Shown here in pieces: positions 10,166 through 51,187 of a DNA stretch of 64,000 nt (the first letter of the stretch is position 1; each line of letters opens with the position of its first letter). Origin of the DNA: Astrocystis sublimbata (lineage: Eukaryota > Ascomycota > Sordariomycetes > Xylariales > Xylariaceae); contig JAJNNY010000007.1 of NCBI GenBank assembly GCA_022453515.1, forward strand, positions 310,001-374,000, in the 5' to 3' direction. A program made the position numbers and the translations under genes. The notes under the pieces were generated by a model that saw nothing but the letters and a program-made list of their open reading frames with translations, did not search any database and had not been told where the DNA came from.

Positions 10166-11246
10166 CTATTTCTTGTTGGCCTCGGCCTCGGCCTTGTCCT
10201 TGGCACGCTTTTCCCGCCGACCGGCCAGTCTGGCGTCGCTTCTGGCCTTGCGCAGGGCAACGAAGGCACCGCCCTCGATGGGCTTGGGGAACTCGCTCTT
10301 CTTGATCTCGGAGACACCCTCGGCGACAGGGATAATGGGCAGAGAGGCGTTGACGTGGGCGACGGTCTGGGTGCTGCTGAGGTCGATGTCCTTGCTGTCG
10401 CCGGCCTTGGGGTGCTTGGCGCCCTTGCGGGGGAAGACGATCAGGCGCTCCTTGTAGGCCTTCAGGCGGGCAACGTTGATGGCGAGAGACTCCTCGCTGA
10501 GGTTCTGGCGGCGGAAGTCGACGGCGATACCGATGGTGGGGGCCACGAGACGGGGGACGCCGGCCTCCTACAGTAGCAGCGTGTCAGAGGACTGTTCATC
10601 CAGTGTTCAAGAAGCACGGGCTGGTGGTGGGTCAAGATACCTTCAGCTCAGTGAGGGTGAAGCCACGGCCGGACCGCACGCGGCGGTTGTACTTGGCGGT
10701 CGGGCATCGGACAACGGGCCGCAGCTTGTCGACAGGACGGGGAGCGAGGGCAGCAGCCTTAGCGGCGCGGGCCTTACGACGAGCGATCTTCTTGGTGGGC
10801 TGGTGCGCGGATTCGAGTTAGTGCTCTATTCCCCAGAACCATCCGACGACGACTGGCTCTTTATTCAATCCGCCTCATGGTTTCCGTGATGTTCTGCGTA
10901 CCTGGTCGAAGTGGCATCGCACCCGTCTTTGCCAATCCTTTCGGAAGTCTGAGCTCGGTGGTTAGTGAATCCGCGCGTAAGGTAGTTGCATGTCTCTCGA
11001 TTGTTCGATCGCTCGATCGCTCGCTCTATTTCGGATAGGCATATCGGATCGGGGAAGCATACGGTTCTTCTCTGTGGGTTTGTTAGCATGGCCTGACCGG
11101 AGGAAGGGGGGGTATCGGTGGTGGCAACGCACGAATCTGGTTGTTGTGCTTGATCGCCTAGATGCAGCAAGAATATAAATGTCAGCAATCCATCCCATTC
11201 GATGACCTCTCTCTCTCGAGGGGGACGGGTGTGTGCTACTCACCAT
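10166..11246 (-). CDS. RPL13: 60S ribosomal protein eL13
   Basis: Six coding exons on the minus strand: 11246-11244 (the ATG alone), 11157-11133, 11071-11063 (9 nt), 10948-10902, 10799-10641, 10567-10166; total 214 residues, the usual eL13 length. The assembled N-terminus begins [21 protein letters not shown], followed by [20 protein letters not shown] and [13 protein letters not shown]; the last exon has [20 protein letters not shown] and a Lys/Arg-rich tail ending EAEANKK. These are diagnostic of eL13, a component of the large ribosomal subunit. The 9-nt exon is demanded by the conserved residues and flanked by perfect signals (cccacag / gtatgc). The first intron directly after the ATG is GTGAGT...CTAG. 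High intron density near the 5' end is common in fungal ribosomal protein genes. Confidence 0.95.
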
Positions 11247-14041: not shown

Positions 14042-16313
14042 TTATTCACCTTTCTGCTTCCGCATCCACTCGTCGTTGACATCCACGTAATCATCAGGGC
14101 CATACGGCTGCATGATCTCAGCGAGCCAGCCACTTTTGCGGTGTGGGTTGAGACCCAGGTCTCGCTGAAGCAGGTCGAGGTACGGCACAGCGTCAAATGT
14201 AAAAGCTGGCCTTCTGTTGCCCCAGTCCGTTGGGTAGCGCCACCGGCCCCAGCGGTTAAATAGCACCGTCTCGTAGCAGACGCTCCTCCTCTTTCCTCCT
14301 CGGTCGTCGCGCTCGCCATTACGCAGCAGCGAGGTCTTTGAAGTGCTGAGCTCCTCGTCGTCACCTTCAGCATTGATGTTCAGCTTCCCGGCGAAGTAGG
14401 CGCTGATCCAGAGCCCGCAGAGATGTGCGGTAACTGAGTTACTGAAGTTCGACATCATCCCCGTAAACGCGATATCCCGCGTCCGCAGGAGCCGCGCGGA
14501 AGCGGGGACCATGAAGCGATGCAGCATGAACGGCGTGAGAGGTGTATAAGGTGTTAGCTCGTTGGCGGCGCTGTCGATACCCTTCTGATCCGTCATCGGC
14601 TTGTAGTGCGCGTTCCATACTGGCTGGTCCCTAAGGCGAGGAAACCTCTGCAGGATCTCTCTATCAGCTGCCTCAATTAAGCTCTGCTGGTTTGCAATAT
14701 CCTGAGCTGGAGCGTGGGGCTGGGTTGTTGGTTGATGCGGTATGCCTAACTCGGCCTCGATGCCCTCAGGTAGAAACTTGATGCTCGGCACGTGTTTCCA
14801 GCCTGTAGTAGCCAGAAATACATCCGACTCGAAAGCTGTACCATCTGCAAGGTGCACCTTGCCGGCGCTCAGATGGTCAATCTCTCCGACATGAACATTT
14901 ACTAGATCACTTTTGATAATTGGAAAGATATCCTGCTCGTAGTTCAGCGTGCTGATACTATCGGCAGTGAACATGAAATCCGTCCACGGCTTCAGTTTTG
15001 CTGTATCAGGGTGAGCTTCGTAGTCGTTCTGTGTTAGTATATCCCCAGCTATAGTACTGTAGAGTTTGTTCACAAGAAACCTTCCAATAGCTGTGTTATG
15101 GAAAAAGCGCCGTATCCAGCCGTAGCCGCTGTAAGAGGAAGAGAATTAGAACCTGCCGTCTTAATATTATTTTTTTGATTTACGACAGATATCTCAAGCG
15201 CATGTATACCTACCTAGGTAGGTAATCATGCAGCATTTGAGAGTAGAATCTTTGCCGAATCAGGGAATCAAGGACTCAAGAATACTAACTCAGCGTCGCC
15301 CCATATACATGGGCTGAACCAGGTTATAAACCGCGTAGCTATGATTACCAGTCCAGTTAGCGGATGCTTAATCTTTATCAACAAAGAACGAGATACTCAC
15401 TGGCGAGCTTTTCTGCCCGCAGCTTCAATGGCGTTGCGTAAGGACTACATATCCAACATGGCCCGTGACCCTTAGCTATAAGTGCTGATTAGTGTCCAAG
15501 GAATTTTGGAAATAAGGCTCATTTACCAAAGGAGTGAGGGGAGCATACATCGAATAACCCAATTCACGGTTACACCAGCAGTAGCGTAGGCATAAACAGC
15601 ATCCCAGCCAGACTTAGTAGCACCGAAGACAGTGATTGCTTGCGCTGTTTCCATGGTCTTGCTGTTTTGTTTGAAATGTTTCCCGTGGAAGATCATCCCC
15701 CCAGCGCCTTTGAACTCTTCCTGGCCATCAAAATGGGGAAGGAAAGGTTCCGAAGTCATTCCGGTGGCAACGATCAGATGACGGGCAAAGGCCTTCTTTT
15801 CTCCTTTACGAGGCTCTGCGATGGTCAACACCCAGCCTCCATCGTGGGTATCTCGATGTTCCGCGGACAGTAGCTTGTGGTTAAAGCGGATAAGCTTCGC
15901 TATCCCTTTGTGCTCTGCATACGCCTTGAGGTATGAATTCAAGGCTGTGCCTTTCATATGTTCGCCGGCCTTCACATCAAACTTGTCACTGCTCATGGGA
16001 AACCCGGGGTATTCGTAGGTTCCAAGTAGGTTGTTACTCTTCAACATGGGATACAGGCGCTCCTCTGCCCATGTGCCGCCTATTGATGTTTGGGCATCGA
16101 GGATGACCAGCGACTTTTCGGGCTGCGTGCTGTGAAATTGTGAGGCAGCCGCCAGCCCGTACCATCCTGTTCCATAGGCAAGCTCAGCAACGCACATGCG
16201 ATCTTTGACCAACAAGGTCCCAAGCCATGATGAGCGTACAAGGACGGAATTCGAAGGGGAGTAATCGAGATAGTCCTACCAGCACCGACAACTACGCAGT
16301 CAAGCTCCTCCAT
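14042..16313 (-). CDS. FAD-dependent monooxygenase (FMO/BVMO-like)
   Basis: Five exons on the minus strand (16313-16280, 16166-15549, 15475-15401, 15338-15290, 15128-14042) give 620 residues. The start MEELDCVVVGAGWYGLAAAS holds the first GxGxxG FAD-binding motif, restored by splicing intron 1. IGGTWAEERLYP follows, then FxG...FHGKHFKQ, close to the FMO fingerprint. A second nucleotide-binding-like segment is ITVFGATKSGWDA. The C-terminal half has LATTGW (typical late FMO motif) and ends in EWMRKQKGE. Enzymes of this class use NADPH, FAD and O2 to oxidise soft nucleophiles or ketones, and several act in fungal secondary metabolism. The FMO lies about 1.5 kb from the tryptophan lyase-prenyltransferase fusion in the same orientation. 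It appears intact. An in-frame upstream ATG (16337) exists, but 16313 gives the normal short N-terminus before the Rossmann motif. Confidence 0.85.
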
Positions 16314-17770
16314 CTTCGTGAACAGCGCGAATCGCACTGCACTTTTGCTAGGCTGTTCAGGTATTATGTTGATAAGCGGATATAGGTACTCAACACCATC
16401 CGTGCCGGATCACATTGACTTTCGCGTTTGTTGGCTTTCGGCGAACTTGAATGTAGAGAGTGCAAGGAACGTTTAACTTACGTGCCGTGCCCAATGGAAC
16501 TGCGGGCAGCGAAAATTGGAACGACGAATAAAGTACCAATGGTATGCCTCATACGGCATATGGTGCCATGATATCACATCGACCCTGGTCATTAACAGCA
16601 GTGCTCGGCAGTGCTAAGCCCTCAGAGTTCTGCTTGGACATACAGTACGTAGTATGTACCCAAGCGTAAGCATGCCAAGGTGCCCCCATAGGGGTGTCTA
16701 TAGTGTGTCACTTACACGGATGTCGCATTGCCCAGGACGTGTTGTTAGCGATCTATATTATTAGCCTTCTCGTCAAAGGCATCAGGTGCGGCCTGTTCCT
16801 GGCATGCGTCCTTGCATCCATATCGGCATACAATCCCACGAGGGCCCATACTTTCTTCGGACCAAGGCAACCAAACGCCTTGATGCTTAACTTAGCGGCG
16901 AGCGGATTCCAGCTACATTCTGCTAAGCCCTGCTATTTCCACTCCTCTTTCGCAGCATCAGTAACCCATCGATCGATTCGAAACAACTTGGTGTGGTACT
17001 ATGCACGGTATCTCAGATTCAACTTGAACCCGTCCGAGCTACAGGTTTACTCGTACATGAGGTTGGACAGATCCCTCACACATTGCTGAGCACTCCCAAG
17101 ACTCCAGACCCACGAGCTACGTAGGCTTGTACGGGTATGTATCGATGCTGACCCGTTTCACTGCAAGGTTCTTCTCGCCTCACTGCATCTGCCAGTAGTG
17201 TGGCAGCAGTGCCGCTTAGCGTCCAGTATTTTTCGACTACTCGTACTGCTTTCCAAGTGTCATTAGTTTCATACGCCGCTACTACGTAGTATGTTGTACC
17301 GTAGGAGCGGATCATCGATCCCGCCTGGCAAATCATGGAATATCAAATCACGACTCAGAACGACAGATTCTATGCGCACCTTGGAGCAGGCGCTGGTTGA
17401 AAGATGTCAGCCCGCCAAGGCCAGCTCGGCCAGACTTTGAATGTGCGCACACTCCGTATGATGCAGTTGAAACAGGCAGCAACAAGCCATGAAACGCCGT
17501 TCTCCCATACTGCCACTTGTTTTGGCGTTGTTAGGCCAAGAGCTGAAAGGCTTTCTTTCCTTCGGCTTCGCGGATACATTTTCCACATTGGTCATAGCAT
17601 ACAGCATATTCATCCCGTCATGAAAAGATGCGCCGTCTATTTATGGTGACTGATCAATCAATTTCATACTGAGCTAATATCGACAAAGGCAATGCACATC
17701 ACCAACGCCGCCACCCACTCTCGATCCATGTCCTTGTACGGAAGGCCCTGCGCCTCCCCCTCTGGGTATT
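16314..17770. other. intergenic between FMO and fusion gene
   Basis: Longest open frame here is 131 codons on the plus strand (16694-17089), with no recognisable domain. I see the FMO promoter side and the fusion gene's 3' side only. Confidence 0.5.
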
Positions 17771-20696
17771 TCAAGCAGAAGAAAAGAGATCAGGAGAGAT
17801 ATAGAACGTATTTGAATGCTTGCCGCCGGCAGCTTGCTTCAGACTCACCCAGGCATGGATACCCTTGCCGCGATTCAGCGGCCGGCGCTGAACGGCGCTA
17901 ATCATCTTCCTGTAGCGCTTCCTGTACAGGGGCGATACCGACACGGCGTCCATGTACTGCTCGATGCGGGCCTGGATCTGCTCATCATTGTCGGCATACG
18001 CGCTAATGGGGAAGTGGACCGTCCCAATCGGCTGGGAAGGCGTCTTGCTTGTAAAGGCAAAGCACGAAAGCAAGGGTTTCCCACCGTAGGGTCCAAGGGA
18101 GCCGTCGCCTAGGATCTCACAGAAGCGTTGGATTTCGTACGTGTCCGCGTGCGGGCAGATGGAAGCGTGCTTCTCTGCAATAGTCGACGCCGAGGTTACT
18201 CCATGCGAAACATAGACTTTGGCACGAGCGTGATCCATGTCTGACGACAGATCTAGAGAGAAATACACAACTGACTCGTTGGGCGTCATGGTGCTTTCTA
18301 CGACGGCCCAAGACTCGGCTAGGCCGATCCGTTCGAAGGCCGTGCGGGTGGTGTATATGGCGTTATCGCGACCAGGTGTGCAGCTTGGATTGAGGTAGAT
18401 CTTCCACTCTGGGCCATCTTTGCCCGATGCGTAGCTATGCCAGGCGGCAAAGAATCCCTCGGGGTTGCTAGGCATAAAGATATCCCGGATAGTATTGAAG
18501 CGATTCAGAGAAACTCTCGTGTTGTATTCGTTCGCTATCCTGTCCGTTAAGTTCAACGCGGCCGACTGGAGCTGCGTCAAGATGCCCTCGCTTTCGGCTT
18601 CCTCTAGCGGCTGAGCTTCAATAAGAAAGCGCAGTTCTGCTTCCCCAGTCTTTTGGTCCAATACAACGGAGTACTCGAAGGGCGAGTGGTCGTTGCTAAC
18701 TTGGGGTACCCATCGCAACAAGTCAACGCCTTGAGGAATGGGTGAGTGTCCCCAGTCTACCGTCGAAGTTTCTAAGGCGCTGACCAAGTGATCACTCGGA
18801 CCCTGATCGAGTGCTCCCGACAGGTGGAATATCTGTCGTTTCGCTTCACTGAGGTATGTACCCCCCATAGCCCGGCTCACGGGTATAGGCTTCATCCCCG
18901 CGGAAAAGTGCCGAAGCCTCGAATTCTTACCCCTCGTGATCTCAACGTTAGGGATTAGGTGTCTCCGGTTGTGTAGTTCTTTGATAGCCGCAACCGTGTA
19001 GCTGATATGTTGGTCGGACAATACATGGCGTGGCACTGCAAATCGAACTAAGTTTGGTATCAAAGCTTGTAGCTTAGGGGTCTTCTTATCCCATTCCCAG
19101 CCAAATGGCCCGGCCTCAGCTGCACGGATACCATAGTCTTTAAGAAGCTCTAGTGTAAATCCTAGAGCGGGAAAATCACCGGGGTACCTATCGCAGCCGT
19201 AAAAGAAGTCGTCCATGTCAAGGTACACTGCGTGACCTCCGGGAGGAGAGAGGACTGCAACGCCGCGGCTCTGAAGCTTTTGAGCAAAGGACCGTACTTG
19301 GTTGATGCGGGTACGCAAATAGGGCTCCTTGGTGACCTCGTATAGGCCGACCACGGACGCCATCATGTCTCGTCCACTCACTAAAAGTCTCTAGGTTAGC
19401 GTCGAGGTTGTGCTCGGCCATCTCGTCATCTAATGTTGCTCAAAGGCATCAAGTCATGGAAACAAAGACTGCCACTCACTGCCTCCGTAAGAATCGTTGC
19501 CGTAGAATAGAATCTGACGCTCTTTTAGGCTTACGCCAATGCCCTCGTAACGCCGAGCGAACAAGCTGTCATCCTTAAAGCTTAAAATTCCTCCCATGTT
19601 CGATAGGCCGTCTTTCTTGAGACTGATTGTGAACCCGTCCACGTACGAAAACATTTCCTGGACGATCTCGGGAATAGTTTTGTTCGAATACCCAGACTCG
19701 AACTCTCGAATGAACCAGGCGTTTTCTGCGAAACGGCAGGCATCGAAGAAGAAAGGTATTGATTTTCGCCTTGCCAAATTCGCAGCTGCACGGATATTGC
19801 CCATTGACACCGGCTGTGCAGCAGCCCAGTTGTTGGTGATCGTCATAAGTATTAAGCATACTTCGGCGTGTTCATTTAGATAGGCCTCGGTTGCCGCTAC
19901 ATCGAGATTTCCCTTGAATGGGTTCTCTTTGCCAACGAGCTCCTCGGGGAATGGATCGGTCAGCCCAGGCTGAGTGAAGGTTTCCAAAGCAAACCCTGCA
20001 GCGGCGGCATTGGCTCCTGTCGTGTCAAAGAAGCCATTACTTATCACCACCCTTGGGGTTTGGGACACTTCTTGCTGTCGTTCTGCTATTGCGTCCTTCA
20101 GTGTAGAGAAAAGCAGGAACTCGGCACAGCGGCCCTGTGGGACAATGAAGAAGTTAGGCCTTTCCAGCTGGCAAGGGCCGCCATTGACAAATCCACCTTC
20201 ATATGGCTTGAGCAGCTTGCTTCGATAAAATTCAACGTCGGCTACGCCCGTGACAACCCCATGAGCCGCGTATTGTCGATCATTGCCGCGCTCAAAGATG
20301 TCTCGACATGCTTCGAGGAGGCAGTAATAACCCCAGTTGCGGCCATAGCTCTCGTCGCCCCGAAACACTAATATGTCGAGCTATTAGTTGCATGTACCAT
20401 GCGAACACAAGCACCTTATACAAATTGAAGAACAATGCCCCATTAAGGTTCATGCCACTGATCTTATATGAACTATGCGGGATCTTACACGCTGACCATT
20501 GCAAGTCTGTCATGGCTGATGTACCGGAATCAGACAAGTAGTCGCAGGCGACAAGGCCCGCGGGGAAAGCAAATATGTTGTATTCCACATCTTCCAGTAT
20601 TCTCTCGCGCTCCTCTGCCGTGGTATTCAAGAGGGATCTAACGACCAGCGCTTGGTGTGTGGGTGGGTGAAGGAGAGAATCAAGTAAAGACGACAT
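17771..20696 (-). CDS. tryptophan indole-lyase fused to DMATS-type aromatic prenyltransferase
   Basis: Three exons (20696-20489, 20367-19480, 19380-17771) give 901 residues in one frame. Residues 1 to about 525 are a PLP beta-eliminating lyase: SDSGTSAMTDLQW near the start, QGR ending at 149, SNGFFDTT with Asp184, NN..AAQPVSM (Asn249), FFFDACRFAEN (Asp278, Arg281), and the PLP lysine in SLKKDGLSNMGG (Lys320/321). Asp184 and His523 (RLRHFSA) match tryptophanase rather than tyrosine phenol-lyase. Residues about 535-901 are an ABBA-fold prenyltransferase: FEYS (Glu601, general base), LRF (Arg616), KIY (Lys692, Tyr694), RAKVY (Arg751, Lys753, Tyr755) and TFYISPDLF (Tyr892). The expected joint chemistry is Trp to indole plus pyruvate and ammonia, and dimethylallyl transfer to an indole ring. 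The order of steps is unknown. The prenyltransferase part, about 365 residues, is shorter than classical fungal DMATS. All key residues seem present. Confidence 0.88.
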
Positions 20697-22438: not shown

Positions 22439-24061
22439 CTATGCAAGAATCATGCTGGCTAGTTGCTCGGCCACAGCGTAGAGAGAAGCCTGAGGATGAC
22501 CGCCTAGCGGCACAGGGATAATACTGGCATCTGCGACCCTAAGTCCTGTGACACCAAAAACCTTGCCCTCACCATCAACAACGCTGCCCATGGCGGCGGT
22601 ACCACCCGAGTGCTGGTGTTGCTCGCCGGTCCGCTGGAGTCTGTCCAGTATCACTTCATCGCTCGTCTCGGTAGTCAGGGGGGTAAGGTTTTCCAGCCCA
22701 TCCTTGACAGGAGGGGCTTCGCTCTCGACAATTCCTTTCATGTTTTCAGTTGCCGTTAGAACTTCGATAGTCCTGCGAGTAGCATGAACAAGAGCATCGC
22801 GGTCATGCTGAGTTGAAAGATAGTTCGGCTGCACACGAGGGAGATCTGCTGGTGAGCTTGATCGGATCGTGACCGTGCCTCGGGAAGTTGGAAGCAACAA
22901 CATAGTTGACGTGGAAATATGAGTGCCGTCAATAGGGATGCCAGGGATGCCAGGCACAACATACGCGGTCAGAACCTCGTAGACATTTCGTTCGTCCCAG
23001 TTGGGTCTGGTCTCATTCTTGTGCTTGGCGGCAATACTTCCAGGGAGGGTCTGGTTCGCGATCCAATCCCACGGAAGGCCCTTGAAGAAGGCAGGGTTCT
23101 GGAAACCCGCACTTCCGAAAGCGTATCCAAGTGAGGGGTCTCGCAGTCGATAGGCAAGGTGGATGGCGTAATGGTCATGGAGATTCTGACCAACATGGGG
23201 ACACTCGTGAACTAGCTGAACACCGTGTTCGGCCAGGTCGGCTTTCGGCCCAATACCCGACAGCATAAGGATCTTGGGGGTTTGGTAGGCGCCGGCGGAG
23301 ACGATAACCTCCTTTCGTGCAGTGACTTTGCGGCCGTCCACAAGCTCTACACCAGTCGCCTTCTTGGCGTTGTCGAATACCACTCTGTGTACAGGGGCAT
23401 TAATGAGGACATTGACCTTCTCGAGGGGGTAAACCACATTGGACGGCTGCCGCATGCCTTTGCTGTCTGCGTTTTCGTGCATCTCATTCAGACCAGCACT
23501 GGCACCATCCTTCCTGTCTACATTATGCGAAACACCGAGCTCGGCCCAGGCCTTCTTAACCGTGTCCCGCAGAGGATACTTGCGTTGGCCGTCGTCGCAA
23601 GCCGCAACGGAGGTGACGTACATAGGTCCGTCGAAGCCGTGTTCTTGGGGATCTGCTGCAGAGTCATAGAATTTCTCCGACTTGATGAACCAGGGCTTGA
23701 GGCCCTGGTAGCTCCAACGCTTGTCGCCTGCGAGCTCAGCCCACTCATCATAATCAGCGGCATCTCCTCGAAGCCAGCCACCGAAATTGATGACCGTGCC
23801 TCCTCCCAGCGCTTTTCCAGCGCTGAGATGATGCACGCGATCAGCGGTGGTTGTGACGGGCTCGCTGGGGTAGGCGTAGTCGAGCTCGCCGCCTTGAAGC
23901 GAGAGGCCAGTCATGAAGAAAGCAGTAGCGGTATTGCCAGCTGGGTCAGGCCCTGCTTCAACGAGGATGACGTCTTTACCGCCTTGACTGAGACGAGAGG
24001 CGACAACGCACCCAGCAAGGCCACCGCCGACCACAACGTATTCAGCGGTTAAGTCAGACAT
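22439..24061 (-). CDS. GMC-family FAD oxidoreductase
   Basis: Single exon, 540 residues from ATG 24061 (MSDLTAEYVVVGGGLAGC). The frame is open for 62 further codons upstream, but this ATG places the dinucleotide-binding motif VVGGGLAGCVVASRL at residues 10-24 as usual in the family. Other family marks: LSAGKALGGGTVINFGGWLRG (GMC signature 1), VSAGAYQTPKILMLSGIGP (signature 2), QHQHSGGTAAMG with the catalytic His, and HPQASLYAVAEQLA with the second catalytic position. GMC enzymes oxidise alcohols, sugars or pathway intermediates with FAD. No secretion signal is seen, so an intracellular pathway role is more likely than lignocellulose attack. It is transcribed in the same direction as the fusion and FMO genes and diverges from the 7TM gene at 26.6 kb. 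Confidence 0.9.
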   Translation of the reverse strand: MSDLTAEYVVVGGGLAGCVVASRLSQGGKDVILVEAGPDPAGNTATAFFMTGLSLQGGELDYAYPSEPVTTTADRVHHLSAGKALGGGTVINFGGWLRGDAADYDEWAELAGDKRWSYQGLKPWFIKSEKFYDSAADPQEHGFDGPMYVTSVAACDDGQRKYPLRDTVKKAWAELGVSHNVDRKDGASAGLNEMHENADSKGMRQPSNVVYPLEKVNVLINAPVHRVVFDNAKKATGVELVDGRKVTARKEVIVSAGAYQTPKILMLSGIGPKADLAEHGVQLVHECPHVGQNLHDHYAIHLAYRLRDPSLGYAFGSAGFQNPAFFKGLPWDWIANQTLPGSIAAKHKNETRPNWDERNVYEVLTAYVVPGIPGIPIDGTHISTSTMLLLPTSRGTVTIRSSSPADLPRVQPNYLSTQHDRDALVHATRRTIEVLTATENMKGIVESEAPPVKDGLENLTPLTTETSDEVILDRLQRTGEQHQHSGGTAAMGSVVDGEGKVFGVTGLRVADASIIPVPLGGHPQASLYAVAEQLASMILA

Positions 24062-26623
24062 TCTTGGGGAGGATTCCGAGCGAGGATAAACGAAGGCGTG
24101 AGTAGGTACTTTAGACGTGATGTAAGTGGTGATAGAATCCACTCGCGAGATGGTATGAATGTGAGCAAAACGTAAATAATGAGACAAATGGTTGAATTTG
24201 ATAATTACAGGCGTACCTAGGATGTTTATTAATTTCCCATGTGACAACTCACGTCATATGTCTGTTGAGAAGCCTGATGTTGCACGATTCATCGGATTCC
24301 TAGGCTATCTCGCCGGTCGGTGCGGGCATTAAGTTGTTGGGTGACATTTTGCCCATGCAGGACAAAGCAAGGCGAAACGGCCACCACTCCCGTTTGTGCA
24401 ACACAGCCTCGGAACAAGGTACTTCTGGTGTATAAGCACACACTCAATGTGGGCGCATTAGCATGTTTCTGATTGAACACTCGTAGAGCTGCAAGGACCA
24501 TTGGTCGTCTATGGATCAACGGTAGATGGCTGGCTCGGGTGGCATGCATATGGGTGATAAGATCCAAGTAAACAGTATACCACAGTAGTGTAACCTTGTA
24601 CCTGAAAGAAGCGCAACATATGCTGACAGACCCATGCCAGTGCAATCGTAAGCAACCAGTGAGTGGCAAGCCTCACTCGAGTATTCCAATGAGCCCTTTG
24701 GAAGGGAGTATGTGTTATGTCATGGGAGAATAACGAATTGCTTCCCATGTTTAAACCCATGTTTAAACATGTTAGTTCCTACATCTGCGTACCTACTCAA
24801 CTTACATAGGAGCAGTATTGGTTTCCGAGTGCGGGGTGGTCAAGGCTGTGCAGAGAGAGATAGCTCGATAGGGCTGTTTGTGGGCACCTTTTATGTCAAC
24901 AAGATCTCACACTTACCTACCATATAGGTACTTGCAATAGATATACATCATAGCATTGAATCAGAAGAACAGCCCTGATACTTTCTGCCCAGCATTGGAT
25001 TTCTCAGTATCGAAGAGGGCCATGATGTCATTGGCGGGCAATGAGTATGTCATACCAGGTATTTAGGAGGTACTTGTAGATAACCCCAGACGCTTATACT
25101 TATTCCATTTCCCCTAGCTACTTACATAGCTCAGGGAGGGTTCTTTTAGTTCCACGTACTCGTACATGCAAAACTTCAATAATTGGTTGGCCTATACTTC
25201 GTCAACAATACGGAGTATTCAGCATCATCTCAGATTTGCTCTCTCGTTTCAAACTATCACCACAGCAATACTAGTAGTCAGTACCCATCGGGAGTCCATA
25301 CCTTCGTCTACCCCCTCAAGCAGGACGGGTCACGATAGCCACACGGTGAATTCCAGTGCCCATCTTGGATGAGACCCGAAAATATTTATTCTTTTCCCCG
25401 CGGATGCCAAGCTGCATGCGAGCCTGGTCCACAGCATTGAGCCAAACTACTCCGTGGTACCTACAGCACATATAGTACCCTTGCCTAGTAAGTAGGCGAA
25501 GTAGGTATCTACCTAGTACCTAGGTACCAAGGCTATAGTATATTCTCTCTAATTTTAGCACTGCCGAAAATGTCCCGAATCCCTGCTCAGCCCATTGACA
25601 ACAATTGGCCAATCGTCCCCGCCATGTGCTGCCATTATAGTGGTTTCTGAGATATGGAATGGGTCTGACATGTCTGACATCAGCCCATGCTGACTGCGCC
25701 CTCGGCGCCTGGGCGGCCTGGCCTCTTCCTCCGCTGCACCACCGCAGCAATGTCACCCTCCAAGACAAGCCCAAGACAAGCCCCAGCCCGCTTCCGGTTA
25801 GCGATGCCTTCGAATGCCCGATAGTCGTGGGGATTGGACACTTAGTAAGCCCATTGTGGACACTGCCCGATTGCGCCGCTAAAGAAGATCCAGAAGGTCC
25901 AGTATGTAGGCGAGGTTGGCGAGGTAGGCGACGTTGCCGTGCAGCTCTCTACGCGATGTGCTCAGTTGTCACGCGGAACAATGCATGATTGATGGAATCC
26001 GGGTCGTGCTTCATCACATTTGATCGGGTGTTTCGCCTCGTGGCTTTTAACTATTGCCCTTGTCTATGGACTTGTGCCTGCATTCAGCCCAGGCAGAAAC
26101 CCTTGCCCCTAGATAGCCGGCATGTGCGTTGACTTGGTTCAATCTCAGCTATCGGTATTACGCCATGGCCCATGGGTAAGCACCCGACCCGGGATACGAT
26201 GCCGAGCGTTAAGACAGAAGGGGGATCTGGAGGGCTCCTAGTTTCCACTTACCTAGGTACATGCCTATTGTGAAGCAGGCACTTACGCGAGAACCGTAGA
26301 TGATGTATCACATTAGCCGTGTGTGGCAGCAAGACCCTGAACGAACCAAGGCAGAAGCCTCGGAAGCCCCCCTTATCCATGAGCATGAACTCGTCTTTCT
26401 AAATTTACAAGGGCTAGACTAGAACGTGATCTAAAGCTGCATGGTCCCAAAGTCTGGTCGTGCTCCAAACGCCTTAGCATCCTATAACATAGAAGCAAGT
26501 CGGTTCCGTAGGGCGTCGTGGGATACTTGCGACTTTTTTCTCTTTTCATGACTTCATGTGTATCCCCACCTTCCGTCTCACGCAACCCGACGCGCGGCGA
26601 TCCTGCTTGACAAAGTTGTCAAA
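24062..26623. other. divergent intergenic region, GMC / 7TM gene
   Basis: About 2.5 kb with no supportable gene. Contains a near-palindromic duplicate ATGTTTAAAC (24748-24772) and AGGTACC-type motifs near 25503-25530 and 26250-26260. It includes the promoters of both flanking genes. Confidence 0.5.
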
Positions 26624-27798
26624 ATGCTCGGACCATACAGCAAAGAGCTGATGATAGGCCTCGCCGTAGGCTCCATCGTCCTACCTACCATATTTTTCGG
26701 ACTTAGACTCTGGGCGAGGCGTTTGCGACGGACGGGTTTATCGACAGACGATTGGCTATGCTTCGCGGGGCTGCTTGTTGGATGGACATGTTGCGCCTTG
26801 CAACTCTACGCTGCCATCGACGGGCAATTAGGTCAGCATCAGATACTTGACGAAGACGGGAAACCTATTCTAGATGACCCGCGATTCTTGGTTTACGAAA
26901 GAGTGAGTAGAGAGGGTGTAGGCCGCACGATGATTATCATTCCAGACTGACGATGCATTCTCCAAGACCAAACTTGCTGTAAATGTCCTCAGTCCCATCG
27001 GATTCGGGCTCGTGAAGGCCTCGATTGTGGTTCTCTACGAAAGCATATTTCACCAAAACCGCCCGTTTCGCATTTGTGCATATGTCATGCTTGGGCTACT
27101 GGGCGGATGGGCGATCTCTTTCTTCTTCGCCAATTTGTTCATCTGTTATCCGGTTACAGCCCTTATAGAGCCCTTCTACGGGAAGAAATGCGTCGATCGA
27201 GCCGCCGTGTTTCTCTCGACGCTTGTCACTGATCTGATATTCGACATTCTCATCTTGCTGATGCCAATTCCGGTCGTACTGCGGCTACAATTACGATCGA
27301 AAGATAAACTTGGAGTGCTCGGGATGTTTCTGCTGGGAGCGACGCAAGTGTTTACCCTCCAACATTCCAAAAGACACGATATACTAACCAACCTTCAGCG
27401 TCGTCGCCGTCAGTATTGCTCGTCTTGTCCAGCTGTTGGAGGTAAACTCACAGTACTTATTATTTGCATTTGACCAAACTTGTACGTATTTACCGCAGTG
27501 AAGTATCGTGGCACTTGGGAACTAAATAATCCATGCAGACTACACCTCACCTGCTTTTTTCTGGGCCAACATCGAACTGGCTATCGCGGTGGTATCAGCT
27601 TGTCTTCCGACACTAAAACCTGTCATGGTCTACCTCTTTCCTTCACCGCCAAAGCCTCAATCGAGCCAAACAGACTATATCCAAATCAGCGAACGAAAAG
27701 CATCACGCTCACGCGAGTCGCGCGGCTCGGATGACATGTATTCTACAGAGCCAGGCAGAGGCTCAATACCACTTAATCACTACGGACCAGAGCCGTAG
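26624..27798 (+). CDS. rhodopsin-like (SAT4-type) integral membrane protein
   Basis: Four exons (26624-26902, 26946-27343, 27399-27481, 27539-27798) encode 339 residues with about seven hydrophobic segments. They begin with LMIGLAVGSIVLPTIFFGLRL and include LCFAGLLVGWTCCALQLYA, VVLYESIF, AYVMLGLLGGWAISFFFA and LVTDLIFDILILLMPIPVVL, and near the end FFWANIELAIAVVSACLPTL. The motif order (DDWL, KTKLAV, PIPV, ARL, W..IE..IA....CLPT) is that of the fungal rhodopsin-domain/SAT4 family, often found beside secondary-metabolite genes; function unproven. Intron 2 begins with GC (GCAAGT) rather than GT, which is the only donor keeping the conserved ARLVQLLE in frame. The tail is polar, with SQTDYIQISERK. 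Upstream in-frame Met at 26558 is a possible alternative start. Confidence 0.8.
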
Positions 27799-28916
27799 GA
27801 GCCAAGCTCCTTAGCAGATAAGGGGGAGAAACAAAAAAAAAAAAAAAGGAAGATCAAAAAAAGATAAAAGACAAGAGAAGAAGATAATAAATTCCAAAGC
27901 CGTTATTACAGACCATGACACTCTGCCCAGGCTGGGTTACAGAAAGAATTCGATACACCACTTGTATATTTGTGTCCGTCCACAGCTAGATTAGACCTGT
28001 ATATATGCAATAATTACATCGGCAATTTCAAGATCAATCTACCAATTACTAAGAAAGCAACCATGACATCTCGTTCAGATCTGGTGCGCAGGGTGCTGTT
28101 TGAGTCGGTCTGGCCCGATCGGAAAAGTGAGGAGCAGCAGGCAAGATTCGTGGCACCACGTCCCCCGACCCTAGGGGTATAACCGACTGTTTGCTATGCG
28201 CCGGGGTGGTAATTTCCTCTTTGCTTCAGCTTCTACTTTCAACAATGGGCTCAACTAGCTGGCTCGGCTGGTTCGATGGCTCGCGCCATTCATTCGGTAA
28301 ACAAGCTATCTGCGGAAGTGGCCGAGCTAACAAGTCGAAGCTGATCGATCGTACGTGAGGAGAAGCATGCGAGCCATGCAGCCATTTGCAACCAACCACT
28401 AATAACTATTACACTAAGCCGCTCGGCCGGTACGCTCGCCCAGAACTCACCTCCCACGTGGGCATGTCGTAGTAATACACGCATGCACACACACACATGC
28501 GGCCGAGTTGCATCGAATGGAAAGTTCTTAGGGTTGGTCACAATCATTGGGCAGTGAGTGGGTAGATCAAATCGGCTGCAGTGGCGGGCTGTTCGGATCG
28601 GCTTGATGCCGCTTGAACAAAGGAATTCTGTTCGCAATGTTGCTTGCAGGTGCCGAGCGCCCCGAAGGCCTTTGCTGCCTGTGCTGGTGAGACTGGTGAG
28701 AAAAGGAAGATATCCATCGAATGTGGCGGCCCCGTCCCGGCGTCCCCTGCAGCTTGTGCCGCCCCCTTCACGCCTGTGGGATCAATCATCCATGCATGAT
28801 CCATCCCATCCACGCCAAGTTCCGACAATAAAACCCTCGTGTGGAACGCTTCCCATTCCTCACGACGTAGCGTGGTATTTTGACGCCATCTCGAAATCCC
28901 TCTTCCCGTCCAAATC
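27799..28916. other. intergenic with poly-A tract
   Basis: No gene seen. An A-rich tract follows the 7TM gene at about 27830-27870. A short CA repeat lies near 28485-28497. The right end is the promoter of the FAD oxidase gene. Confidence 0.5.
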
Positions 28917-30536
28917 ATGAGGTTCATCCGCCAATTCCTGCGGGCTTTGGCCTGTTCAGGACTGGTTTACGCGACCGGCAACTGCACTTCACTCGTCCAG
29001 CGCTTGCAGACCGAGTTGTCACCAAAGCTGTCGCAAGTGAACCTGATATCTACGACGGCGCCGGCACGATGGAGTGATTTTGCGGCCCCGGATCCCGGCG
29101 TTGTGGTCAATGTCGCAACCGAACTGGATGTTGTAGCTACGGTAGGCTTATACGAGTCGCACGCGACGCCGACTCTGCTCGTCTGCCTCGGTCTTGCAGT
29201 ACTTTCGAAAAGAGTGGCGGCTAACATCGGCGTTGTATCACATCTAGGTCGAGTATTGCACAAAACGGCAAATTCCTTTTCTGGCTCAAAACGGAGGCAA
29301 TGGGTGGGCAACATTCCACCTCAAGAACAACGGTGTGCTCATCAACCTGGCTGCTCTAGACCAAGTCACATTCAATGCCGACAAGACTCAGGCTACCATT
29401 GGCGGAGGGTCCACCGTCAAAAACACCATCGACAAGGCCTATGCCGCGGGTGCTCTGGTGCTGACGGGTAATTGTAACTGTGTCGGCGCCCTTGGTGCTT
29501 CGCTCGGCGGTGGCTACGGTAACCTGATGGGAACATTCGGTTTCGCCGTGGATAACATCATCTCGCTCCGCGTCGTCACCGCCGACGGCGCCCTTCGCAC
29601 CGTCACCGCCGAGTCGGACCCGGATCTGTTCTGGGGTCTTCGGGGCGCGGCAGCCAATCTCGGTATTGTGACTTCTGCAACACTCAAATCAAGCCCTGCA
29701 TCCCCAGAAGACTTTCAGGCGTGGAGGGGTGAGTTGGTATTCACCGAGGACAAGCTGGAGGATGTCGTTCAAGCCATCCAGGATCTTGTCTTAGGCCCGG
29801 ACACGGTCATTTTCCTGTACCTTCTTGCAGATAGCACGGGCGCTCCGATGGTAGTTGCCTCTCCATTCATGCACAAAGGCAATGCGACCACGGGCCGGAT
29901 CGCGTACGAGAGTCTGTATGCCATCGGTCCTGTGGCAGATACCACAGCCGTCACCCCGTACAATATGTGGAATGTGGGATCCGACGCGTTATGTACGCGC
30001 GGCGGGTTCAAGCCTGGCTTCGCTGCTGGCTTCCAGGACATGGTTCCGTCCAAGTGGCGTCAGATCTGGGACGCCTACGTCGCTTTCCAGAAGCTCCCCG
30101 GCGCGGCTATGAGCGGTGTGCTTCTCGAGGTATATGATCTGACCAAGGCCAAGTCGGTACCTTCCAGCTCGTCAGCCTTCCCCTACCGCGACGTTCGATT
30201 CAACGCCTTTGCGATTCCCTGGTACGACGACTCGTCACTGGATGCCCAGGCCGCGGAATTCGGGAATACTGTGCGCGACTTGCTGAGAAGTTCGAGCAAC
30301 TCCCCTCGCCCTCAGACGTACGTTTACCATGTCACAAATCCATCTTATTTATCCCTCTCGCTCTATCCAACCTCTTCCCTTTGCCATGTGCTGACTTCAA
30401 CTATAGCTATGTCAACTTCGCCTATGGAGATGAGGCGCTCGATGTAATATATGGAGACAGCCTGCCTAAGCTTCGATCAGTCAAGAACCAATACGACCCG
30501 ACGAACGTGTTCAATCAATGGTTCAACATACGTTGA
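28917..30536 (+). CDS. FAD-linked oxidase (BBE/PCMH type), secreted
   Basis: Three exons (28917-29141, 29248-30317, 30407-30536) encode 474 residues. The N-terminus MRFIRQFLRALACSGLVYA is a likely signal peptide. The FAD_binding_4 (PCMH) domain is visible as DPGVVVNVATELDVVATV, IPFLAQNGGNGWATF, INLAALDQVTFNADKTQATIGGGST and NCVGALGASLGGGYGNLMG. The C-terminal BBE segment ends PKLRSVKNQYDPTNVFNQWFNIR. The usual R-x-GGH loop that carries the 8-alpha-histidyl FAD link reads QNGGNG here, so only the Cys in GNCNCVGA could bind FAD covalently. Such oxidases perform dehydrogenation or oxidative cyclisation in alkaloid and polyketide pathways. It lies downstream of the 7TM gene in the same direction. 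Confidence 0.88.
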
Positions 30537-45894: not shown

Positions 45895-47713
45895 ATGCTG
45901 AGACTATCCGCCGTCGCAGTTGCGCTTATAGGAGGAGCCGCCACTCAGAATGCATCCCCCGTGAGTTTATTCCCCCGAGATTTTGAGCAGCTCTTGCGTT
46001 GTGTCTTTGCTTACTTTTCAAGTGTGAAATGTTGAGAGCTGCGGGTCTTGGGGATCGACTGGTCTTGCCTAACGATGCAGGTTATGACGCCGAAGTCGAT
46101 GCATCGTGGGCAAGTAATGCTCGCGAAAGAGCCGATTGTTTTGTTGTGCCTCGCACTAGCAGCGAAGTTGCCACTGCCTTGACAACCTTGATCAAGCAGT
46201 CCAATGTGAGCATTGCGGTGCGCAGCGGTGGCCATAGCTCAACCGGAGCTAGCAGCATCACCAATGGTGTTTCGATCGACCTGGCACGCCTCAACTCGAC
46301 GAGCTACGACGCTGAAAGCAACATCGCAAGCATTGGACCTGGCGGCCGCTGGGAGAACGTATACAAAGAGCTCGTTAAATACGACATCACTGTCACGGGT
46401 GGACGCGACGGCGAGTTAGTACATTTGAGTCTTTTCGTCCCCATACGGCAGAAGTTCTGCTCTTCAATGCCCCATGCTTGTGTACCCTCTCGAGACACTT
46501 GATTCGCCAGCCAACCCTCCTCAAAGACGATAGATAGTATCTAACTCCTTTTCTCCCACAGTGTTGGTGTGGGCGGTTTTCTCATCGGCGGTGGCAACTC
46601 CTACTACTCTGGGCGTGTGGGTTTTGGCTGTGACAGCGTCGTCAATTTCGAAGTTGTGCTCGCCAACGGGACCATCGTCAACGCGAACCAGACAGAAAAC
46701 TCGGACCTATGGCGGGCTCTCAAAGGCGGCAGTGGCAACTTTGGTATCGTCACTCGCTTCGACATGGAGGCTGTCCCGGCGCCAGACGTATTCAGGGACA
46801 CGCGTTACTTGACCTTCAACCACTCCGATGCCTTGGTAGATGCGGTTGTTGGATTTGCCGACTCCGATGAATCACTCGCAGATGATGCTTTCTTCACCTT
46901 TTTTACTCACACCACGGAGCTTAGTCAGGACATTGTCGCCGCCGGTGTACATGTCAATATTAAGGGCAACACCAACAATCCCACACCATTTGACGAGGTG
47001 AAAGCCTTGCCCTCATTTCTCAACCAAACGAAGGTGGAGACCATCGCAGATGCAGCCTTTGAATCTCAGGTTCAGGCCGGCGCGGAGTTAGTGACCTCAC
47101 TCGCTTGATTAACATGACGTCCAGCTAATGAGTCAAAAAGGAGTTATGGTCTGACGTTGACTTTCAATAACGATAAACGGATTGCGCAGCGCTGTGTTGA
47201 GCTGCATTCGGAGTTTGTCAATTCCCTCAAAACTTTGAGTTAGTATATTAGAGTTCTCGAGTCAACACTTCCCCAAAGACGGCAGATTCTAACTCTTTTT
47301 CTCTAACAGTGGCGCCCGAGGATTTCTTCACACAAATGTTTCTCCAGCCTCTTCCCGCGTACCGGTGGGCGTTTGGGAAACAACACGGCGGGAACGTGCT
47401 GGGACTCGACGACCTCAACAACAACGCCCTCCTCTACACAGCCGGTGTTGGACTTATCGCAGATGGCGCACCGGGTGATGAAGCACATGCCCTCCTCCAA
47501 GAGATGTTAGCCAAAGTCGCCGACTTTGCGAAATCAGTGCAAGGCGAGATGGAGTTTATCTACCTCAACTACGCGGATGCTGACCAAAATCCTCTGGGAA
47601 CCTATGGCGTTTCGAATATTGCATTGATGAAGGACGTCGCGGCTAAATATGACCCCACTGGAGTCTTCCAAACACGCATTCCAGGAGGCTTCAAGATTTC
47701 CCATGTCAATTGA
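45895..47713 (+). CDS. FAD-linked oxidoreductase (PCMH/BBE family), secreted
   Basis: Best model has five exons: 45895-45960, 46023-46414, 46562-47090, 47133-47238, 47310-47713, for 498 residues. The N-terminus MLRLSAVAVALIGGAATQ is a likely signal peptide. FAD_binding_4 marks: FVVPRTSSEVATAL, IAVRSGGHSSTGAS (the His of the 8-alpha-histidyl link), SIGPGGRWENVYKEL and DVGVGGFLIGGGNSYYSG. The second motif lacks the Cys found in bicovalent BBE enzymes. NSDLWRALKGGSGNFGIVT and the C-terminal YDPTGVFQTR complete the fold. Intron 3 is problematic: the donor GTTAGT used by introns 2 and 4 does not lead to an in-frame acceptor, so I used GTGACC at 47091, leaving a 42-nt intron. Introns 2 and 4 look homologous to each other. 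The transcription factor gene follows in the same direction. Confidence 0.8.
46415..46561 (+). repeat. homologous intron, copy 1 (FAD oxidase intron 2)
   Basis: A 147-nt intron, GTTAGT...CCACAG. Its first 16 bases and its last 40 bases match the intron at 47239-47309 closely (shared AAAGACG, TCTAACTC and TTTTCTC blocks), and TCTCGAG plus CACTT are shared in the middle. The other copy lacks about 70 internal bases. Confidence 0.6.
47239..47309 (+). repeat. homologous intron, copy 2 (FAD oxidase intron 4)
   Basis: A 71-nt intron, GTTAGT...TAACAG, which aligns to both ends and part of the middle of the intron at 46415-46561. Adjacent exons are unrelated. Confidence 0.6.
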
Positions 47714-48600
47714 GAGTAATAATTACATCCTCTGGCTCAGCTGCAGGCAGACATTATTCGAACTTGGAACAATTATTACCATTCACCACTTGTTAGCTTC
47801 ATTTACTTCATGTATTCTTAGGCTTAGACGCATTATAGACAAACAAACATTCCTTGCCATTTCCTACACGCAGATGGCCCACATCCACGTAGTGAGTGAT
47901 ATTACAACTGATGTAGCAGCACTACAATTTCCCAGTAGCCTTTTTATGTATAAGATTGTTTTGTTGTAACATGGGTCACCTGTGCCATAATTACTATTTG
48001 TGTATTTTGACTATACCCAGCGTTTCACTAATGTAATGCAAACGCGTCGGGCGACTATTTCTATGTTAGGGCATTGGAGACGACTCACATTAAAGTTAAA
48101 ATGGGTATAAGGCGTGGGTGCGCCGGTGCGGTCGCATCTTGAGTTCAGCATCTCTAGCTTCAATCGGAAGACTTGGGAATTGTAGGGGATCGTAAAGTGA
48201 AACCGAGTATCTTCCTGAAGCGAGTTAGACAAAATTATCTACTCTAGAGGTAGGTACCAGACCCATGCCCCATATATAATTGCGAGCTATCAGCCCTATA
48301 TCATTATCCAGCCCATACTTAGATACGTACTGTAACCTCAAGAGTCAATGGCGACCAAGACATTTTCCCCACTAATTGGGCTGCATGTGGATTCGCTTGG
48401 AGTGGTTTCGAGTGGTTGCCTGGTCGCGTCTCGACTGGGGTTGGCGGGTTACGTACGCCGCTGACATATGTACATGCCTGGAGCCCGAGGCATGCGACGT
48501 GGCTGTTGATCGACTTTCCCTTTGACGAGTACCATTATCTCAGCTCGGGTTCACGGCGACGCCAGAGGCCTCGCTTCCGACCTTACATAATTCAAGGACA
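47714..48600. other. intergenic, promoter of transcription factor gene
   Basis: No gene supported. Only short chance frames. Confidence 0.5.
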
Positions 48601-51187
48601 ATGAGTGAGGTGGAACATAGTGCCCCATTCGAGCGGAGACCGGCGGTGAGGATCTCCAGCCCCTGAGTTTCCTTCCCAACCTTAGCACTCATGTACCTTA
48701 AACCTTTTGGTACTAATGATACCTGAAATGGCAGTGTGACAATTGCAAAACCCGCAAGGTGAGAGATCCTTCGCGAAGCGTTCAGACTGCCATCGAGCTG
48801 TACGAAGTTTGACAGTCTTGTAGACCAAGTGCGATCGAAAGACCCCATGCTCGAGCTGTGTGACGCTCGATGTGGCATGCCGGACTACACACCGAGCCAG
48901 CGAGAAGCGGCAGCGAGTGCTGTTGTCGGCGAAGTATGAAGATGCCGTACAGGATGTGAATCGTCAACTTGCCGACGTCAAGGACATGCTGCAAGCGCTC
49001 CTATCGAACGGAGATGGAGGCTCGTCCGAAACACGGTCCAAGGAAGCCTCTCAGGAAGCGACGCCCTACACTCCTCGGTCGATGATTGATGAGAAAGTAC
49101 CTACCCTGGACGGCGTTCGGGAAGGATATCATGGGGATACTTCCTTCACGTCTCATGCGCATCAGATCACCACGACTTTAGCGGGAACACTTCTCCCTTC
49201 CGAGCTCGAGTTTCCCGTGGATGCATCTCTAGGGGGCACAAAAATTGACCAGAATAAATTTGATGAAAGCGGCCGCACGAGTGCTACTGCTCCTGAAATC
49301 GATCACAATGACGTTGGGCTCGGAAACATACCGCTGCCACCTAACGAGATCGTGCTCAAGCTCCTACGCCTCCTGAAAACAGAAGAGCAGCGGTTCTTTG
49401 TGGACCTCCCACTCTTCGACGAAGACGAGTTCATCGGCATGTGCCGGGACATCTACTTCGCGACAGAGCCGATATCTCTCTGGACGTGGATCTGTGTCAA
49501 TGTTGGCCTCTGCACCTTGTTTAGGGGGCTGAGTATCGCCAATTGCCAGCGTTTGGGATCATCCATAGAGCAGCTTCGCATGCATACCGAAGTTCTACGG
49601 TCTAACGCCAATTCCGCTCTGAGAAGTCTCCGTTTGTGCTCGGAGCCTTCAATGGAGTCGTGCCGCGCTCTTGCCGTCCTCGTAGGTTTTCCGTCTATGC
49701 GGCGGGTATGATGGAGAACCAATTGACAGCTCATGTTGACTGCGCTAGGCAAACTTCTATGTTAAGCAAGGTCACAGCACGATAGCGTGGCGTCTGATAA
49801 GCGGTGCCGCAAGAGCGGCCCTGGATCTAGGACTCCATCGGCTGCCGCCCGACCCGACCACTTCAGGCGTGCCGAAGGGAGTTTCACTGTTCTGGCACAT
49901 TTACACGTGGGAGAAGGCCCTCGCGATGTCCTGTGGGAAATCCCCCACAATCCGTCATTCTGATGTCACGAGTGGCCTCTACCTCCTAGCCACGCCTGAG
50001 AATCGCTCTGGTGTGCTGAATACGTGAGATTGCACATTCAATGTCTAAATGATTTTGAGGCTGACATGACGGGCGACAGTTTGTACTGCGCATACGTCGA
50101 CATGGCTGTGATCATGGGTGATATCCAGGAGTCCTTGTTCTCAGTCATAGCCCAACAGTCGTCACAGCAGGTTAGACTTGAACACGTCAAACGGCTCGCC
50201 AATCGTCTCCTGGAAATTCGGCATGCGGTAGAACAGGTATGAATCCTGATTCCCCACACTCGTCGCACGTTGCTGATTTGCCTCGACATAGGTCTCCCCA
50301 GACGAGCCCACATGGGACAGACTGGTATCAAGGTACGCATTCGCATGCTTCTCGCAGCAATGGGTGATACAAGACGAACTGACTTTCCTGCAGCAACCTG
50401 GGCGGGTTAAGCACATCGCTTCACATAATCCTGCATAGTCAACTTGCGATTGTGTACCGTTTCCTTCCACCAGAGTTTCCAAATTCGCAGTAAGTAGTGA
50501 CGCGAGCTAGTGATGGCTTCGAGACTTTCACATACTCTCCTGGGGATAACGTTGGGAGCCAAGTCCTCAATGCTCGCCAAGGTATCGACGATTGATATTC
50601 TGCGGGACAGTGACTAACGTATATCCATGGTTTAGCCCTTTACAGTGCTCGAACGAATGCGTCAAGGAGGCAAGGGCAACGCTGTCGATATTAGCGAACC
50701 TCGGCGAGACAGGCGTAGTGAAGCACATAGAAGGATGGAAATCTCTAATAAACACGTAAGTTCCAAGCCATTCTCGCTCCCGATATGGATTTCTTCCGGA
50801 CTCACATCTTGACACAGGATTCTCTGCCTCGTCCCATTGGTACCGTTCATCGTGCTGGCAGGGAACGCGATTGCGACGTCGTCAGGAGACGACCTACCGC
50901 TCCTCTCACGGATCATCTCGGTTTTGCAACCTGTGGTAGAGAGCTCGCCCCTGGTGCGGAAAGTGTCCGGGGCTTGCGAGATTCTCACCAAGATTGCGGA
51001 TCGCGTAGTATCGAGTACTAGTCCTCCCGCCGCATATGCGCAAGTAGGTCAGGATCAACAATTCGAGTCTTACGCTTTTCCGATGGGGCAACAAGACTGG
51101 GATAGTGTCATGGTGGGCTTCGAAGATTACGACTCGCGGGCGCTGGCGAATATCATCGAGCCCTGCTTTGCGAATACCTACTGGTGA
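48601..51187 (+). CDS. Zn2Cys6 fungal transcription factor
   Basis: Nine exons (48601-48645, 48735-48758, 48824-49681, 49749-50023, 50080-50236, 50292-50332, 50394-50489, 50636-50755, 50818-51187) join without a frame break to 661 residues. Splicing the first three exons yields a perfect binuclear zinc cluster at residues 16-42 (CDNCKTRKTKC, DRKTPC, SSC, VTLDVAC; spacing 2-6-5-2-6). It is followed by a basic linker (RASEKRQRV) and a coiled-coil heptad region (YEDAVQDVNRQLADVKDMLQ). The middle homology region of fungal-specific factors is visible as QGHSTIAWRLISGAARAALD and LGLHRLPP. Such proteins are nuclear DNA-binding regulators, often of the adjacent genes. The gene directly follows a FAD oxidase, so local regulation is plausible. 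The N-terminus before the zinc cluster is only 15 residues. Confidence 0.9.

Follow-up and report, generated by a model that had tools for sequence, protein, structure and literature searches.

A fungal protein of Astrocystis sublimbata that joins a tryptophanase-type lyase to a DMATS-type prenyltransferase

Does a single fungal gene encode both an enzyme that removes the side-chain of tryptophan and one that prenylates the indole ring, and do the two act together? The question is raised by a minus-strand gene in the 64,000-nucleotide window analysed here (Astrocystis sublimbata, contig JAJNNY010000007.1, positions 310,001 to 374,000; coordinates below are those of the window). An earlier note on this DNA had joined three exons into one 901-residue frame, with a tryptophan indole-lyase (tryptophanase) half followed by a DMATS-type prenyltransferase half. 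Splicing from the ATG at 20696 to the stop ending at 17771 indeed yields 3 exons and 901 residues. The product is identical (100%, whole length) to the public protein P0001 ('pyridoxal phosphate-dependent transferase [Astrocystis sublimbata]'), and all 15 residues that the note had cited are found at the positions it gave. The gene is built as follows (PLP, pyridoxal phosphate; ABBA, alpha-beta-beta-alpha).

20489..20696, minus strand: exon 1 (208 bp); lyase N-terminus, residues 1-69 and the first base of codon 70; open frame
20368..20488, minus strand: intron 1 (121 bp), GTAAGA..TTAG
19480..20367, minus strand: exon 2 (888 bp); lyase core with D184, N249, D278, R281, the PLP lysine K321 and Y363
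19381..19479, minus strand: intron 2 (99 bp), GTGAGT..TTAG; interrupts codon 366 within YGG^MSGRD
17771..19380, minus strand: exon 3 (1610 bp), a single open frame with the lyase C-terminus, the junction and the entire prenyltransferase half; TGA end
18878..20696, minus strand: tryptophanase (tryptophan indole-lyase type) half, residues 1-533; the span includes the introns
18857..18886, minus strand: junction between the halves, about residues 531-540
17774..18871, minus strand: ABBA/DMATS-type prenyltransferase half, residues 536-901, with E601, R616, K692, Y694, R751, K753, Y755 and Y892

Both introns have GT..AG ends. Exon 3 stays open from residue 366, in the lyase, right through the prenyltransferase, with neither an intron nor a stop between the halves, and in the junction region of the predicted structure the model confidence is 85-94 across the ten-residue blocks from 521 to 570. 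We regard it as almost certain that the fusion is real and that both folds, as drawn from this confident model, are present.

A full-length search scored 7996 candidates, of which 1505 passed E <= 1e-3; the best 120 were classified. Both halves are covered to >70% in 77 of them; 23 are frames of 527-552 aa that start near the exon-3 boundary and run across the junction (21 solely from the sources jgi, lgn or ena, which we take to be metagenomes, and 2 NCBI models), 14 have the lyase only and 6 are partial. Carriers of the fusion include ascomycetes (many Xylariales, Podospora and relatives, Colletotrichum, Metarhizium, Stachybotrys, Diaporthe), the dothideomycetes Corynespora, Lentithecium and Massariosphaeria and, outside the ascomycetes, the basidiomycete Mycena pura and a record from the liverwort Riccia sorocarpa. 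It is a family across the Dikarya, not a single-fungus event. The Astrocystis genome itself has a second fusion, paralog P0056 (C146:628.4-631.4 kb; L011:3391-6402), which is interrupted at the same position as intron 2 (365/366). This paralog has lost 7 of the 8 prenyltransferase residues (E601 alone is kept) and retains all ten lyase residues considered below. The Riccia records P0049 and P0087 comprise one fused protein and one separate lyase, and the two lyases are sisters (support 100, starred) within the fungal clade. They lie on chromosome-sized contigs (the longest 31.9 and 52.3 Mb), so that transfer from a fungus to the liverwort is plausible; contamination is also possible. An open-access literature search on the liverwort returned nothing on Riccia.

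Residues 52-494 match PF01212 (E 1.4e-48, 166 bits against a Pfam cut-off of 27), and the lyase half reaches 474.7 bits with the tryptophanase profile PRK13238 (cut-off 285). The PLP lysine and the Asp/His pair expected at the indole NH are all present, and D184 and H523 align with the Asp and His of solved tryptophanases. When 67 of the fusions were aligned, 10 of the 77 being set aside as near-duplicates or shortened proteins, K320, K321, N249, D278, R281 and R478 proved invariant, followed by D184 (66, one gap), Y363 (66), Y77 (64, three gaps) and H523 (57; replaced by Val in 9 and by Leu in 1). All ten tested residues are kept in 53 proteins and all except H523 in 62. We take Y77, D184 and H523 to occupy the places of Tyr-72, Asp-133 and His-458 of Proteus tryptophanase. 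In that enzyme, according to the excerpted text of PMC11301627, Asp-133 links His-458 to the indole NH, C3 is protonated by Tyr-72 from the partner subunit, and the Asp-133 to Ala mutant has no activity on tryptophan. H523 is replaced, with Asp184 retained, in P0060, P0062, P0064, P0066, P0070, P0071, P0083, P0084 and P0088 (Val) and in P0075 (Leu); 8 of these 10 carriers are Colletotrichum.

The C-terminal half matches PF11991 over residues 587-855 (E 2.6e-8, 34.1 bits, Pfam cut-off 25) and forms a ten-stranded barrel of alpha-beta-beta-alpha repeats. The earlier note had staked its reading on this half being an ABBA enzyme, and structure comparison sided with it: the nearest solved folds belong to indole prenyltransferases, for most of which tryptophan is the substrate. 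Its description of a tryptophanase-type PLP lyase joined to an ABBA/DMATS prenyltransferase, short like the bacterial enzymes, thus agrees with domain profiles, alignments and structure comparison. The catalytic Glu and the diphosphate-binding Arg/Lys/Tyr set are complete in the Astrocystis protein (8/8), where the equivalence to known catalytic residues is in part presumed. Among the 67 fusions E601 is conserved in 64, R616 in 61, K692 in 63, Y694 in 62, R751 in 53, K753 in 60, Y755 in 64 and Y892 in 62; all eight are kept in 49, the Astrocystis protein included, and at least seven in 56. A catalytic Glu, Arg/Lys diphosphate anchors and a tyrosine shield are described for TleC in the accessible part of PMC4786772.

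What would such a protein make? In actinomycete Type A clusters tryptophan is converted via prenyl-tryptophan to 6-dimethylallylindole-3-carbaldehyde, with 6-prenylindole as a likely intermediate (PMC3617294, as excerpted). Given this analogy, and since the protein has the residues that both reactions call for, we propose that the fusion makes prenylindole from tryptophan and dimethylallyl diphosphate (DMAPP); judged from sequence and analogy, a bifunctional enzyme of this kind is reasonably probable. In the tryptophanase half, PLP on Lys321 would eliminate indole from L-tryptophan or from ring-prenylated tryptophan and leave pyruvate and ammonia, while Asp184 and His523 would hold the indole NH and Tyr77 would protonate C3. 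The C-terminal ABBA barrel would bind DMAPP via its Arg/Lys/Tyr set and prenylate the indole ring, Glu601 lying close to its NH, so that the predicted net reaction is L-Trp + DMAPP -> prenylindole + pyruvate + NH3 + PPi (diphosphate). By analogy with the IptA pathway, prenylation of tryptophan first and cleavage second may be the slightly likelier order. We infer both activities, as we do the step order, the regiochemistry, a tetrameric state, any channelling and any further oxidation by neighbouring flavoenzymes.

Several observations weigh against this bifunctional reading. The lyase half stays below the cut-off of the tryptophanase equivalog TIGR02617 (290.9 versus 825.8 bits) and is therefore not assigned to it; likewise, the prenyltransferase half stays below that of TIGR03429 (DMATS family aromatic prenyltransferase; 87.3 versus 163.85 bits) and is not assigned to that subfamily. 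Since H523 has become Val or Leu in 10/67 fusions, mostly of Colletotrichum, the lyase substrate may differ there. Five or fewer of the eight prenyltransferase residues are found in 7/67 fusions (two via alignment gaps), paralog P0056 among them, so the second activity is not always kept. Stand-alone lyases and prenyltransferases occur in the same clades as the fused ones, and the halves therefore need not cooperate. At bacterial prenyltransferase loci, no lyase was seen within the fetched stretch in 4/6 actinomycete cases (all four on plasmids), in the single cyanobacterial one (Calothrix) or in 11/13 presumed myxobacterial ones. Finally, no flavin monooxygenase (FMO) or GMC gene was recognised in the examined frames beside the paralog (Pfam was run on part of the frames).

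The fate of the prenyltransferase outside the fusion bears on the question of cooperation. In trees built by a quick method with no bootstrap, the fungal fusion prenyltransferase halves and their stand-alone relatives form one clade (100, starred), and 9 stand-alone Penicillium/Aspergillus rows, environmental ones included (100, starred), sit among the fusions. They keep the linker motif, and no lyase is recognisable in them; placing them outside 20 fusions is rejected by the approximately unbiased (AU) test (p 0.009, for a group chosen after the tree was seen). We interpret the nested position and the linker motif as fission, by which these prenyltransferases were apparently freed from the lyase. 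P0129, P0133, P0141, P0144 and relatives are the Penicillium and Aspergillus stand-alone enzymes in question. The grouping of all fusions as one clade was AU-rejected for both halves, partly because certain 'solo' rows are truncated models: remnants of the lyase are present in the 'solo' prenyltransferase rows P0125, P0126 and P0165 (the last a truncated fusion), and the 'solo' lyase row P0089 ends inside the prenyltransferase region. The Daldinia rows, real or split models, were left out of the AU test. Some AU groups (the first prenyltransferase test and the last lyase tests) were named after viewing the trees; long-branch warnings apply to the canonical DMATS rows, L140, L132 and Fusobacterium, and the Streptomyces rows are odd in composition.

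Bacteria provide a second line of comparison. That tryptophanase and DMATS genes adjoin in actinomycetes, as the earlier note had stated, is corroborated by two Streptomyces plasmids, in which the DMATS gene lies immediately 5' of the tryptophanase gene, and by the excerpted PMC3617294. A wider look at plasmid prenyltransferase loci gave no further pair (records H47, H48 and H49 of 9 were left out). PF11991 occurs at 13 places in 12/377 genomes from the phylum of a Bradymonadales genome, which we take to be Myxococcota; Bradymonadales is placed under Deltaproteobacteria in the NCBI taxonomy. All 13 places were fetched (two on contigs under 6 kb), and a tryptophanase gene lies near the prenyltransferase at two. 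At L135:5318-8184 tryptophanase is followed by DMATS on the same strand, 0.4-0.5 kb apart, and at L142:6814-10005 the two genes are convergent. The lyases at these two places share 63% identity and cluster with short bacterial lyases. Bacteria thus also pair these activities, once in the order of the fusion, with a different lyase lineage. Other arrangements were seen on the way. DMATS genes at L096:6800-11435 (Calothrix plasmid) and L144:3090-7202 (Streptomyces cadmiisoli plasmid) lie near an FMO/FAD-oxidoreductase gene, which recalls the actinomycete Type B (DMATS and FMO) clusters. At L148:1279-5353 (Amycolatopsis sp. AA4 plasmid) a tryptophanase gene adjoins a tryptophan 2-C-methyltransferase gene (tsrT), possibly another pairing of tryptophan ring modification with side-chain removal.

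With these data the alternatives can be weighed. The two enzymes might be tethered without sharing a pathway step, the lyase yielding indole or degrading tryptophan and the prenyltransferase acting on something else, for example a larger indole alkaloid or free tryptophan. The Penicillium/Aspergillus enzymes, which persist without a lyase half and cannot be moved out of the fusion clade, mean that the prenyltransferase can survive alone, and at least five canonical DMATS genes elsewhere in the Astrocystis genome amount to a wide indole-prenylation repertoire. Against this stand the closest solved folds of the C-terminal half, mostly tryptophan-acting, and the bacterial pairs; the same pairing with another lyase lineage is best explained by a shared pathway. 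We consider uncoupled halves unlikely. It is more improbable still that the lyase is the working part and the prenyltransferase half mainly a scaffold or decaying remnant: the lyase half is better conserved (median identity to the Astrocystis protein 69% versus 54% across 66 fusions) and prenyltransferase residues are lost in several fusions, P0056 included, but the intact set of eight in 49/67 fusions, Astrocystis among them, speaks against decay. Tyrosine phenol-lyase activity in place of tryptophanase is very improbable. Solved tyrosine phenol-lyases share the fold, and the score with the tyrosine phenol-lyase equivalog TIGR02618 (264 bits, cut-off 720.7) is near that with TIGR02617, both well below cut-off; Asp184 and His523, however, align with the tryptophanase pair, the PRK13238 cut-off is reached, and a solved 'F448H mutant' of tyrosine phenol-lyase implies a native Phe at the position that we take as equivalent to His523. 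A gene-prediction artefact that merged two adjacent genes is hardly credible, given a stop-free junction within one exon, both halves in 77 of the best 120 proteins, the 21 jgi, lgn or ena frames that span the junction and a paralog with the same layout.

Where did the halves of this probably bifunctional protein come from? A lyase scan of genome contigs, of which the best 80 loci were kept, gave 18 loci of Lokiarchaeota type at 52-56% identity over the half and 62 others at 35-49%. In a plasmid search the half was 45.7% identical to a Fusobacterium record and about 32-33% identical to the lyases of the two Streptomyces pairs. In the lyase tree (83 rows) the fungal sequences, together with Riccia, fall into a single clade (100, starred) that is joined to Asgard and Fusobacterium (99, starred), and the Streptomyces pair lyases lie far from it. 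The earlier note had thought that an adjacent actinomycete gene pair was transferred and then fused. This idea is not supported: grouping the fungi with the two Streptomyces pair lyases is rejected (AU p 0.0003), as is grouping them with four bacterial pair lyases (two Streptomyces, two presumed myxobacterial; p 3e-24), and the gene order is opposite too, prenyltransferase then lyase in both Streptomyces pairs. For the lyase half we give an origin from an adjacent actinomycete pair next to no credence. In a reduced set the best tree places the fungi with Asgard, Fusobacterium standing apart, with a support of just 35; the donor question was examined without protist rows. A Blastocystis sister is reported in the accessible part of PMC8537960. 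PF11991 was found in 0/12 Asgard genomes searched. The stand-alone fungal-type lyases P0099 (Cladophialophora) and P0108 (environmental) fall outside the fusions in the tree (support 81), a hint that the lyase came before the prenyltransferase.

The fungal prenyltransferase clade is separate from the five canonical DMATS of the Astrocystis genome (99, starred), the exact place of the latter being unsure because of long branches. With more bacterial rows added, its sister in the best tree is a set of 27 environmental rows that includes the Polyangiaceae record P0182 (support 92, not starred). A link with the Streptomyces enzymes is neither demonstrated nor rejected (AU p 0.52).

Taken together, we tentatively picture a widespread eukaryotic family that turns tryptophan into prenylindole in one polypeptide, with transfer between two packed active sites. 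Fungi would have put it together, independently of the bacterial pairs, from a tryptophanase of the Lokiarchaeota/Fusobacterium type and a DMATS of the bacterial type, and a liverwort would have received it from them; repeated later break-up would have produced the free Penicillium/Aspergillus prenyltransferases and paralogs with dead prenyltransferase halves. As a whole this picture is possible rather than probable.

The fusion gene is flanked on either side by a candidate tailoring gene on the same strand:

14042..16409, minus strand: FMO-like frames, possible tailoring enzyme (16080-16409 and 15523-16275; 14042-15145 joined by eye only)
22439..24253, minus strand: GMC oxidoreductase, possible tailoring enzyme (PF00732 E 2.2e-37, PF05199 E 7.7e-33)

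PF00743 matches 15526-16275 (E 6.1e-10), and no Pfam family was found on 14045-15145. The two enzymes could oxidise the product of the fusion, a weak suggestion because methyltransferase genes, not FMO or GMC genes, were recognised beside paralog P0056. For the same reason a conserved neighbour cluster was discarded (two loci, one genome). Genes at 26552-30536 and 45987-49711 (a fungal rhodopsin-domain protein, two FAD_binding_4, berberine-bridge-like genes and a Zn2Cys6 domain) could belong to a metabolite cluster, and a ribosomal protein L13e frame at 10166-10567 (minus strand; PF01294 E 5.5e-26) marks a housekeeping border on the low-coordinate side. Elsewhere in the genome, the canonical DMATS genes are single frames on G000 contigs C169, C185 (two), C173 and C168, with partial matches on C119 and C7. 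The other PF01212 hits (L007, L008; regions L009, L010, L012) have no tblastn match to P0001, P0056 or P0095 and thus represent other PLP lyase families.

No description of a tryptophanase-prenyltransferase fusion was found among the open-access papers listed, subscription papers lying outside that search, and the accessible portions of PMC8537960, PMC8403587 and PMC13293291 do not describe it. Tryptophanase (tnaA) genes of Colletotrichum, Podospora and Metarhizium are in print as horizontal transfers (PMC8537960), with no second domain mentioned in the portion available; the strings 'prenyl' and 'fusion' occur 0 times in its text. A 2024 paper, as excerpted, still terms tryptophanase a bacterial enzyme (PMC11301627). 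A Hypoxylaceae metabolite survey sought DMATS with a canonical template, and its accessible text does not use the word tryptophanase (PMC8403587); a search with that template only would easily pass over the fusion lineage, which could be included in the four unassigned DMAT clusters with monooxygenases reported there. Fusion sequences are already public, some records are named tryptophanase, and precomputed Pfam marks both domains. If the enzyme is bifunctional, it would offer a one-enzyme route from tryptophan to prenylindole, and in genomes of Xylariales, Colletotrichum, Metarhizium and Mycena one gene would be expected to yield prenylindole-type products. It would also be a natural test of the benefit of fusing consecutive enzymes, because bacteria and fungi arrived at this pairing by way of different lyases.

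Among known systems, the actinomycete Type A clusters (iptA and tryptophanase) come closest in chemistry, with the same two activities, presumably the same substrate and a short bacterial-type DMATS. They differ in having two genes, the prenyltransferase before the lyase in two loci, and a short lyase of another lineage (AU p 0.0003); the fusion is a single polypeptide rather than separate adjacent genes of that lineage. Long-type tryptophanases align along the whole lyase half (44-46% identity to Butyricicoccus 8sl7, 45.7% to Fusobacterium, 52-56% to the Lokiarchaeota type) and differ in having no attached prenyltransferase at the loci examined. The bacterial DMATS (Streptomyces coelicolor 5-DMATS 6zrz, Micromonospora 6-DMATS 6zrx, PriB, CymD and IptA) are stand-alone enzymes, with 20-25% identity to the prenyltransferase half in structural alignments. 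The canonical fungal DMATS (DMATS1 in the PDB and the 5 Astrocystis copies) share the ABBA fold and PF11991 with the fusion, but form their separate clade and align with its C-terminal half at a lower Z (36.2).
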